Part shown: in pieces, positions 32,632 to 34,662 of the stretch
How positions within the stretch are numbered: position 1 is the first letter of the stretch
How the letters are laid out: each line of letters begins with the position of its first letter
From: Terriglobus roseus
GTDB taxonomy: Bacteria; Acidobacteriota; Terriglobia; Terriglobales; Acidobacteriaceae
DNA: 64,000 nt
NCBI RefSeq assembly: GCF_900105625.1
Contig: NZ_FNSD01000001.1
Coordinates: 3,906,001-3,970,000, forward strand
Direction: 5' to 3'
Program-made: the position numbers and the translations under genes
The notes under the pieces: generated by a model
Database searches by the model: none
What the model was told of the DNA's origin: nothing
What the model saw: only the letters and a program-made list of their open reading frames with translations

Positions 32632-32861
32632 GTGTGACCTCCAGTGATACGCGTCCAAGAAAAGTGCGCTCTGGCGTGTGATGCACGACGGGAGGATGCC
32701 GTTGATTGACGTCACAGGATTTTGGCGAACGGACGTTTCAGGCTTCCCGTGTCGCCCGCTTCGTGCGAAAAGGAAACAGTACCGGCGCTCGCCGACAGGC
32801 GAAAGCCTGCTCAGAGTCGGCTGCACACAAGCGACACCGCAGGCAGGTGTTTCGATATGTC

Positions 32862-33434
32862 TTAGGCGCGGAGCAGCTTCAGCACGGCAGCCACAGTCTG
32901 CTGCGGCTGCTGGTCGGCTGTGTCGACCAGGTGCTTGGCGCAGCGGCGGTAGACGGGCGCCCGCAGGCGAAAGCGCTCTGCAGCTAACTGGGCGTCCAGC
33001 AGGAGGGGACGAACGGCGGCGCCTTCTTGGAGGACGCATCGATCGAAGAGCACCTCGAAGGGTGCATCCAGAAGAACCACGGCGGTGCGCGAGGTCTGCT
33101 CCAGCAGAAGGCGGTTCGTCAGTGTCTCCGGGGCGCCGCCGCCGAGCGCAATGACAATGTTGCGACGGCCAAGGACGCGTGCGATGGCGGCAGACTCGCG
33201 CTTGCGAAACTCTGCCTCACCGACCTCAAGGAAGATCTGGGAGATGCTCGAACCGTAACGTTGCTCGACCTCGGCATCCACGTCGGCGAACTGCCAGCCG
33301 AGTTCTGCTGCCAACAGGCGGCCAACGGTGCTTTTACCTGCGCCCATAAAGCCGGTCAGCACGATGCGATCGGCGGAAAGGGGCGCGGCGGGGATGGGGC
33401 TTTCGGTGGTGGGGTCGGCAAGCATGCTCGTCAT
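32862..33434 (-). CDS. aroK: shikimate kinase
   Basis: 190 residues. P-loop GFMGAGKSTVGRLLA, shikimate-binding Asp in FADVDAEVEQR, Arg in EAEFRKRESAAI, and GGGAPETL. Phosphorylates shikimate in aromatic amino acid synthesis. N-terminal 20 residues are an extension. ATG 33434 has GAGA upstream; ATG 33425 is possible. The 42 nt before the start are preceded by an intrinsic terminator and a frame rich in aromatic codons, so expression is probably set by attenuation. The gene ends 230 nt before the AI-2E-family gene. Confidence 0.94.
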   Translation of the reverse strand: MTSMLADPTTESPIPAAPLSADRIVLTGFMGAGKSTVGRLLAAELGWQFADVDAEVEQRYGSSISQIFLEVGEAEFRKRESAAIARVLGRRNIVIALGGGAPETLTNRLLLEQTSRTAVVLLDAPFEVLFDRCVLQEGAAVRPLLLDAQLAAERFRLRAPVYRRCAKHLVDTADQQPQQTVAAVLKLLRA

Positions 33435-33474
33435 GATGGTCTCAGGTAATGCGGTGTCGTGGTGCGTTTAGAAA

Positions 33475-33506
33475 GAGAAAAGCCGCGCCCTTTGGGGGAC
33501 GCGGCT
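33475..33506 (-). terminator. candidate attenuator terminator before aroK
   Basis: On the minus strand AGCCGCG-T-CCC, loop CCAAA, GGG-CGCGGCT, then TTTCTCTTTC. It lies between the short aromatic frame (stop 33536) and aroK (start 33434), not after a full-length gene, so it would cut off aroK transcription. GAGCCGC in its first arm can instead pair with GCGGTTC inside the short frame (33565-33559), a possible antiterminator. Confidence 0.65.
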
Positions 33507-33535
33507 CAGGAGGATCGAGCGTCTCTTTGCGCTTA

Positions 33536-33628
33536 CTACTGGTGCGTAAAGGTCGCAGGAACCGCCGTCGCCGCCACTGGATACCAGTAGCGGTAGGTAA
33601 AGCAAACGGTCTGGAAGGTCTGCGACAT
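33536..33628 (-). CDS. candidate aromatic leader peptide of aroK
   Basis: 30 codons from ATG 33628. It begins MSQTFQTVCFTYRYWYP: within the first 16 residues there are two Phe, three Tyr and one Trp (F5, F10, Y12, Y14, W15, Y16). It is followed by an intrinsic terminator and then aroK, a gene of aromatic amino acid synthesis. This is the layout of a classical leader-peptide attenuator: ribosome stalling at the aromatic codons when charged tRNA is scarce would favour the antiterminator. TAATCT lies 11 nt before the ATG. Confidence 0.5.
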   Translation of the reverse strand: MSQTFQTVCFTYRYWYPVAATAVPATFTHQ

Positions 33629-33639
33629 CTCTGACGGGC

Positions 33640-33669
33640 AGATTACACCCGTCCTTGAGCGCAAGGCAA
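33640..33669 (-). promoter_or_regulatory. candidate promoter of the aroK leader
   Basis: TTGCCT (33669-33664), 18-nt spacer and TAATCT (33645-33640) on the minus strand, just past the terminator of the upstream operon. Confidence 0.4.
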
Positions 33670-33680
33670 GCGATCGCATT

Positions 33681-33707
33681 AAAAAAAGGCGGACCCGAAG
33701 GCCCGCC
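33681..33707 (-). terminator. terminator after the sigma-factor operon
   Basis: On the minus strand GGCGGGCC-TTCG-GGTCCGCC followed by TTTTTTT: an 8-bp stem (one G-U), UUCG loop and a U7 tract, 21 nt past the stop. Confidence 0.88.
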
Positions 33708-33727
33708 CTTTCTATAGGTCTGAGGCT

Positions 33728-34009
33728 TTACTGAATGGTGTCGTCCTTGGGTGTGATCTCGATCTCTCGTTCGATCTTTGCCCAGAGGTCATGACTCGGC
33801 ACTTCGCCTTCCGGCTCCATCAGCATGCGCGCGGTTTCCGCGATGTACTCCAGATCGCGCACCAGTTCCGCTGCCTGCGGGCAGTCGCGAAGGATTTCGG
33901 CGAAGCGCGGATCTGCGCTCAGCTTTCCGCCATCGGCGCGTTCGAACAACTCTGGTAGTTCCTTTTCGAACTCCGCGCAAGTCCAGCGCTTTTCTTCATA
34001 GTCCGGCAT
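33728..34009 (-). CDS. small acidic protein, possible anti-sigma partner
   Basis: 93 residues, acidic, no membrane span. It begins MPDYEEKRWTCAEFEKELPE and continues with CPQAAELVRDLEYIAETARM, which recalls the start of cytoplasmic ZAS-type anti-sigma factors, but the second zinc-ligand pair is missing. Its ATG overlaps the sigma-factor stop by 1 nt (TAATG), so they are made together. An anti-sigma role is inference from position and shape. Confidence 0.6.
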   Translation of the reverse strand: MPDYEEKRWTCAEFEKELPELFERADGGKLSADPRFAEILRDCPQAAELVRDLEYIAETARMLMEPEGEVPSHDLWAKIEREIEITPKDDTIQ

Positions 34010-34662
34010 TATTTCGACTCCACCAAGGCGGCTTGTTCGTTCTGCCGCAAAATCTCTCGCAGCTTTAGTCGCGCCTTATGCAACTGCGATTTGCTGTTGC
34101 CGGTCGAGCACTCAAGCATGCCGGCGATTTCGTTGTGCTCGTAACCTTCGACGTCATGCAGCACGAAGACAAGGCGATAGCCCGGGGGCAGCGTTGCAAC
34201 AGCACGTTCCAGGGCGACACGGTCTACGGAGCCGGAGAGGCGCGGATCGCGCGACCCGAAGTCCCGCTTTGGTGCGTCCTCTTCCGAAGGATTAATCGTC
34301 TCTTCGAGTGAAACCAGTTGCAGGCCCTTCTTGCGGAGGTGCATCAGCACGAGGTTGACCGTGAGGCGGTGCAGCCAGGTGGAGAAGGCGCTCTCGCCTC
34401 GGAAGGATCCAAGCTTGCGGTAGAGGTGCAGGAAAGCTTCCTGCGTCATGTCCTCTGCCTCAGAGACGTTGCCGAGCATGCGCAGACACAGCGTGTACAC
34501 GCGGCGCTTATGCAATGCATAGAGCTTCGAAAATGCGTCTGGATCGCCATTTTTGGCGCGCTCCAGTGCGTCCGCCTCACCTGCAATCGGAGGATTCCGT
34601 TTGAAGTGACCTGCGGGCGGCGTCGAGTTGTTTTGTGTCATTCCGTAGCCCTGAAGTTCCAT
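34009..34662 (-). CDS. ECF-type RNA polymerase sigma factor
   Basis: 217 residues. Sigma region 2 (AFSKLYALHKRRVYTLCLRM; EAEDMTQEAFLHLYRKL; STWLHRLTVNLVL) and region 4 (LERAVATLPPGYRLVFVLHD; HNEIAGMLECSTGNSKSQLH). No region 1 or 3, so group 4. ATG 34662 has GGAG 6 nt upstream; the open frame beyond it to 34866 is not sigma-like. Followed by a probable anti-sigma gene and a strong terminator. Target genes unknown. Confidence 0.93.
   Translation of the reverse strand: MELQGYGMTQNNSTPPAGHFKRNPPIAGEADALERAKNGDPDAFSKLYALHKRRVYTLCLRMLGNVSEAEDMTQEAFLHLYRKLGSFRGESAFSTWLHRLTVNLVLMHLRKKGLQLVSLEETINPSEEDAPKRDFGSRDPRLSGSVDRVALERAVATLPPGYRLVFVLHDVEGYEHNEIAGMLECSTGNSKSQLHKARLKLREILRQNEQAALVESK

Follow-up and report, generated by a model that had tools for sequence, protein, structure and literature searches.

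The window is a 64,000-nucleotide stretch of the Terriglobus roseus genome. On its minus strand, after a gene for a sigma-70-like factor and then a small gene without a Pfam match, lie a short leader frame and aroK, the shikimate kinase gene. The parts of the locus are listed below in the order of transcription.

33640..33669, minus strand: predicted promoter, TTGCCT (33669-33664), an 18-nt spacer ending in TG, and TAATCT (33645-33640)
33536..33628, minus strand: leader peptide frame of 30 codons and a stop, MSQTFQTVCFTYRYWYPVAATAVPATFTHQ
33584..33593, minus strand: strand 1, CCGCUACUGG, overlapping the Arg-Tyr-Trp codons
33571..33580, minus strand: strand 2, CCAGUGGCGG, which pairs with strand 1 and whose end is part of the switch sequence
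33570..33574, minus strand: switch sequence GCGGC, complementary to GCCGC of the terminator 5' arm, beginning 12 nt after the first base of the Trp codon
33471..33507, minus strand: intrinsic terminator, with a stem at 33507-33480 and a U-rich tail; its 5' arm is strand 3, GAGCCGCGUCC, and its 3' arm strand 4, GGGCGCGGCUU
32862..33434, minus strand: aroK, shikimate kinase (PF01202, E 2.7e-41), the presumed regulated gene

A sequence-only reading of this DNA had described a 30-codon frame carrying F5, F10, Y12, Y14, W15 and Y16, and all six residues are in place at 33536-33628; the terminator which it set between frame and aroK is likewise there, as the stem followed by a T-rich tail. Only 36 bases (33470-33435) separate that tail from aroK. 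The leader stop codon lies 101 nt from the aroK start, and reinitiation was set aside because of this distance. A cluster of at least five F, Y or W in seven residues occurs in one of the 405 ATG frames of 15-60 amino acids in the window, namely the frame that holds the leader (taken by the script from an upstream ATG at 33679). The leader RNA folds with a z-score of -3.56, and none of 200 shuffles folded as well. A terminator scan of 32700-34500 returned a count of 3 against 1.9 (sd 1.5) in shuffles, which is not above expectation, so the terminator rests on conservation. The same leader is found in Terriglobus roseus DSM 18391, where 305 of 365 aligned bases are identical across the region.

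A search with the single peptide gave matches in 22 of 200 genomes and missed many relatives. A peptide profile built from 23 leaders (E up to 0.1, scoring limited to 20 candidates per genome) matched at least 116 of 398 Acidobacteriaceae genomes and picked up leaders whose cores resemble RYW. At 127 of the 130 profile loci examined, the leader is followed on its own strand by trpB (67), aroK (55) or a DAHP synthase gene (5); one of the remaining three is cut by a contig end (L096) and two (L213, L214) look like chance. All 128 relatives have an in-frame ATG 12-17 codons before the Trp position, and all 128 have a terminator-like stem 3' of the leader, one of these being a wrong stem picked by the script, which was omitted from the folding counts (n = 127). 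Of 57 stretches that matched an exact pattern in named genomes, 31 belong to records which their titles place in Acidobacteriota and 26 to other records. An aromatic gene follows within 900 nt in 23 of the 31, while three are cut by the locus end and five look like chance; among the 26, one (L059) has an aromatic gene downstream. This last stretch stands on a contig titled Verrucomicrobia, where a leader match 79% identical to the query precedes trpB, with chorismate mutase and DAHP synthase genes further on; it could be read either as a mislabelled bin or as a transfer.

Relatives support the view that the element is an attenuator of aroK, as the sequence-only reading had it, and they widen the picture, since leaders of this kind also precede genes for trpB, DAHP synthase and chorismate mutase. 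The alignment of relatives that had been named as the check on that view shows frame and stems recurring 5' of aroK, with compensatory double changes at 2 of 10 pairs in the 1:2 hairpin, which lies over the Tyr-Trp codons, and at 6 of 11 pairs in the terminator. Standard pairs fill 89.9% of the cells of the 1:2 and 3:4 stems in a 125-row alignment, and doubly changed cells number 98 against 28.0 after shuffling (0 of 500 shuffles as high); these counts are favoured by the fact that the structure and the covariance model were derived from the same sequences, which are related and therefore non-independent. Sliding the pairing partner lowers pairing to 33-56%, partly by construction. Covariation in the 1:2 hairpin rests mainly on one pair (27 sequences), formed by the third base of the Tyr codon and the base at Trp+9, which reads C-G in 69, U-A in 27, C-A in 1, U-G in 0 and other non-pairs in 31 of 128 leaders. 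In the 32 leaders where this pair is missing, the 1:2 hairpin is weak (median -5.9 vs -15.5 kcal/mol), partly owing to a one-codon shift.

In 119 of 128 relatives the switch sequence GCGGC starts at Trp+12, counted from the first base of the codon, a position which we take to be about where the mRNA exits a ribosome that holds the Trp codon in its A site. An antiterminator had been proposed earlier between GAGCCGC and GCGGTTC; these can pair (33565-33559, one G-U), but it is the GCGGC upstream, at 33574-33570, that relatives keep instead. After RYWxPV, 125 of 125 leaders use GCG for the first Ala, a codon that accounts for 2077 of 4937 Ala codons in the downstream genes. At 58 sites found with the covariance model, GCGG falls in frames 0, 1 and 2 in 26, 27 and 5 cases (leader starts chosen by the script), a property on which the model does not select, and its presence in all three reading frames marks the switch sequence as an RNA motif. 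Two trpB leaders of the same genus that the profile had missed (L267, L274) have lost PVAA and retain, by eye, a 1:2-like stem of other sequence together with GCGGC. Since PVAA is lost at places where the RNA persists, a motif at the peptide level was rejected.

The -35/-10 pair of the sequence-only reading is visible by eye as TTGCCT-N18-TAATCT, but a consensus scan listed no promoter in 32700-34500, and TAATCT matches TATAAT in only three of six positions. A TANNNT with its end 8-13 nt ahead of the leader ATG is present in 110 of 127 relatives, compared with 10.4 in mononucleotide shuffles; in 107 of 127 it is accompanied by TTGN starting 45-34 nt before the ATG, compared with 2.0. The corresponding figures for the stretches found with the covariance model (n = 59) are 31 vs 5.9 and, with TTGN, 26 vs 1.1. 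Transcription is predicted from the promoter-like sequence to start about 0-6 nt before the leader AUG. According to PMC3160421, TA-like signals about 10 bp before a start codon most probably mark leaderless genes, and about 13% of genes in three Acidobacteria genomes are classed as leaderless. Given the position of the TA-like signal before the ATG, the leader transcript is probably leaderless or nearly so.

Covariance-model matches with E up to 0.01 occur in 141 of 250 Acidobacteriaceae genomes and 51 of 79 genera, chance matches included; four of four weak family matches inspected (E 1.9e-5 to 0.0012) look like chance, and at least 32 genera have a match at 1e-7 or better among the matches listed. 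From the listed matches 60 new sites were chosen, with a model that contains both hairpins. The gene that follows is aroF (DAHP synthase) at 29, aroQ (chorismate mutase) at 17, trpB at 8 and aroK at 3, or 57 of 60, the chorismate mutase assignment being backed by PF01817 on one of the 17. The other three comprise a site cut by a contig end (L395), one before a protein that by eye resembles chorismate mutase (L407) and a false match (L425). Counts over 58 sites omit this false match and one masked site. GCGGC is present in 56 of them, and GCCGC or ACCGC in the terminator arm of all 58, partly by selection; their 1:2 hairpins, which took no part in model building but are also scored by the model, fold better than shuffles with a mean z of -2.52, and below -1 in 46 of 58. 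Within genomes of other genera of the family that lacked a profile match, no frame 5' of trpB (12 genomes) or aroK (13 genomes) was aromatic-rich at the chosen threshold. The apparent absence did not hold in six of these genomes (G004, G006, G015, G050, G055, G075), where the RNA model gave aroF or aroQ leaders.

Aromatic residues are concentrated at offsets -5, -3, -1 and 0 from the Trp position (125, 97, 127 and 125 of 128); they occupy +1 in 51 and each of +2 to +8 in at most 5. The identity of these codons follows the branch of the pathway. A Trp codon is found within the first 20 residues of 69/69 distinct trpB leaders, 53/53 aroK leaders, 27/34 aroF leaders and 0/16 aroQ leaders, most of the aroK and trpB leaders having been found with a profile that contains Trp. 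Sites found only with the covariance model give 7/7 for trpB, 3/3 for aroK, 22/29 for DAHP synthase and 0/16 for chorismate mutase, the enzyme of the branch to Phe and Tyr. The contrast between trpB and aroQ in this subset has a Fisher p of 4e-6, which overstates independence because the leaders are related. As the covariance model also favours Trp, the zero among chorismate mutase leaders runs against its bias. Three trpB leaders (L370, L417, L418) have lost Trp at offset 0 and carry it upstream instead. The window genome has a second copy of the leader, before trpB, which is diverged (MTRAVNFWRFTTRYGATSAAPKEHAL), has a poor U tract and scores E 8.4e-7 with the model. There (L338, L280; C1 near 1870800-1877600), trpB, trpA and genes for DAHP synthase, dienelactone hydrolase and prephenate dehydrogenase stand in a row. 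In many of the 25 genomes inspected, trpB and a DAHP synthase gene are a few kb apart on one contig.

Median energies are -14.1 kcal/mol for 1:2, -20.2 for 3:4 and -29.2 for the segment that runs from Trp+11 through strand 3, in which GCGGC has at least three expected pairs with strand 3 in 127 of 127 leaders. When the full leader is folded at equilibrium from the point beyond a ribosome at Trp, a median of 10.6 pairs form in 3:4 and 0.26 in 2:3. Folding thus favours 2:3 only before strand 4 is made; afterwards the terminator wins even in the stalled case, and antitermination would have to be kinetic, with 2:3 folding first. Recoding the first Ala codon in silico lowers the predicted 2:3 pairs from 5.1 to 4.1, with at least three still formed in 118 of 124. 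Strands 2 and 3 are complementary in 86.6% of cells and hardly vary, with three of seven core pairs never varying; the near-invariance of the GCGGC:GCCGC core leaves little covariation, and the putative 2:3 antiterminator is proposed from complementarity and not from covariation.

An inner stem, perhaps part of the antiterminator, has modest support in the linker that joins the leader stop codon to the terminator (122 linkers, mean z -0.98). Across L085-L212 it seems to be formed repeatedly by unlike sequences, CTCTGA with TCAGAG for example. Within the same set, the Phe codon five before Trp is TTT in 123 of 125, and the Phe two codons later is TTC in 45 of 47, its C pairing in strand 1.

Frame, codons, stems, terminator, promoter position and gene context are all conserved. 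Very probably, the element works by ribosome-mediated (leader-peptide) transcription attenuation, sensing aromatic aminoacyl-tRNAs on near-leaderless transcripts, and its copies form a regulon in Acidobacteriaceae; we infer that the frame is translated, that the ribosome stalls, that 2:3 pairs in the cell, and in which direction the response runs. RNA polymerase would start at the leader AUG or a few bases before it, and translation would be nearly leaderless. With Phe-, Tyr- and Trp-tRNAs charged, the ribosome would pass, 1:2 would pair and the terminator 3:4 would form before aroK. Should one aromatic tRNA run short, the ribosome would wait on F, Y or W codons and cover strand 1, leaving GCGGC of strand 2 free to pair with GCCGC of the terminator 5' arm, and polymerase would read into aroK. 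Related leaders stand before trpB operons and the DAHP synthase and chorismate mutase genes, and those on a branch that does not end in Trp lack Trp codons. We lean slightly towards the broader proposal that a single RNA module, made of a near-leaderless frame, a control-codon hairpin ending in GCGGC and a terminator beginning with GCCGC, was placed before at least four kinds of aromatic gene in Acidobacteriaceae and re-tuned by its codons, so that the copies at aroK and the trpB operon would read every aromatic tRNA and the copy at chorismate mutase only those for Phe and Tyr. Purely as speculation, the leader RNAs of one cell, having their switch sequences in common, might influence one another in trans once released.

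Conserved hairpins and a conserved terminator, with a switch sequence kept in any frame, would also suit an RNA that senses an aromatic amino acid or a tRNA directly, as a riboswitch or T-box does, the open frame being incidental. We regard such direct sensing as very improbable, because codon content tracks the pathway branch, the in-frame ATG stands before Trp in every relative, and the Tyr-Trp codons are kept even where the hairpin is shifted or weak. Rfam points the same way: the window stretch has five matches below the gathering score (E 0.19-3.7), none a T-box or riboswitch, eight loci have no match at the gathering score, and the T-box model has none on 33300-33800 (E up to 5) nor, at the gathering score, in the eight loci. 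An arrest element of the kind represented by TnaC, where a specific nascent peptide and a free amino acid stall the ribosome, gains some appeal from F..(Y/F)RYW.PVAA, which looks peptide-conserved in the first set of leaders. It is nonetheless hard to credit when PVAA gives way to SSG, GSG, FKSG and others while the RNA is kept, and when 28 of 128 leaders have Cys, Ser, Gly or Ala in place of the Arg at -2; the aromatic codons are what stays.

It might finally be supposed that the leader is a small protein gene or a small RNA with a terminator of its own, and that aroK is transcribed separately. The leader does have its own promoter-like sequence and terminator, and in S. meliloti a trans action is described for the trpL leader RNA after its release (PMC7298713). 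Against this, the element accompanies four kinds of aromatic gene; the gap before aroK is very short, and the scan lists no promoter within it, though it missed the leader promoter too. We consider separate transcription highly unlikely, though the leader RNA may have a trans role in addition to attenuation, and retain the ribosome-mediated attenuator as the most likely explanation of the locus.

Amino-acid leader families of Rfam, such as Trp_leader and Phe_leader, give no match in the window stretch or the eight loci, and no leader peptide family was matched in NCBIfam (window leader, E up to 0.001) or Pfam (three leaders, E up to 10). In the trpL and pheL attenuators of Proteobacteria, a short leader frame with control codons, alternative pairings and a terminator precede the biosynthetic gene. 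The present element resembles them in its leader frame with codons for the product, in its predicted alternative pairings and in its terminator before a biosynthetic gene. It differs in its mixed Phe, Tyr and Trp codons, in its lack of an Rfam, Pfam or NCBIfam match, in its targets (aroK, aroF, aroQ and the trpB operon) and in the presence of related leaders at two or more loci per genome. To our knowledge, aroK has not been known as a target of attenuation. The S. meliloti trpL leader RNA begins with the AUG of trpL (PMC7298713), and the leader described here is likewise predicted to start at or near its AUG. PMC4833913 names trp attenuators in Actinobacteria (Corynebacterium, Streptomyces), which share tryptophan-dependent attenuation outside Proteobacteria with the attenuator proposed here; phylum and targets differ. 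Korolev et al. 2016 (PMC4833913) report a peak of leader genes near structural genes in several groups including Acidobacteria, but those leaders concern reinitiation at about 10-13 bp, well short of the spacing to aroK; the word 'aromatic' is absent from the text of the article. A literature search found no earlier description of an aromatic attenuator in Acidobacteria, a point on which the comparative attenuation survey of Lopatovskaya et al. 2010 may bear. Attenuation appears here as a family-wide regulon in Acidobacteriota which reaches aroK and seems to work on near-leaderless messages. Its leaders form a natural series where the codons changed along with the branch that is regulated, and with such a series the evolution of sensor specificity can be put to the test.

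Beyond the family, a larger peptide profile matched 81 of 298 genomes in the order, every one of them from Acidobacteriaceae, to which an unstated share of the 298 belongs, and 19 of 297 genomes of the phylum, 16 in Acidobacteriaceae and three, weakly, outside. The RNA model matched 47 of 237 genomes of the phylum, 22 within the family and 25 outside. Inspection of 20 weaker matches from this search gave five aromatic-rich leaders, a near copy truncated at a contig end (L437) and 14 chance-like cases, four of them in the family; the 16 genomes sampled outside the family account for the five leaders (e.g. MFVDDRSRFYFYFYFPPSRGRGSMRAD, MNTGRQYFYFYYFYLK), the near copy and ten chance-like cases. 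Prephenate dehydratase follows the leader at L436, L438 and L439 (PF00800) and at L435 (88.6% identity to L438), and DAHP synthase at L443. These leaders may be either homologous to those of Acidobacteriaceae or convergent with them. Other families of the phylum, namely f18 (L435, L437, L438), f22 (L436, L439) and f15 (L443), show Phe/Tyr-rich leaders and terminators, with peptides such as FYFYFYF, and L443 seems to carry two terminators in a row.
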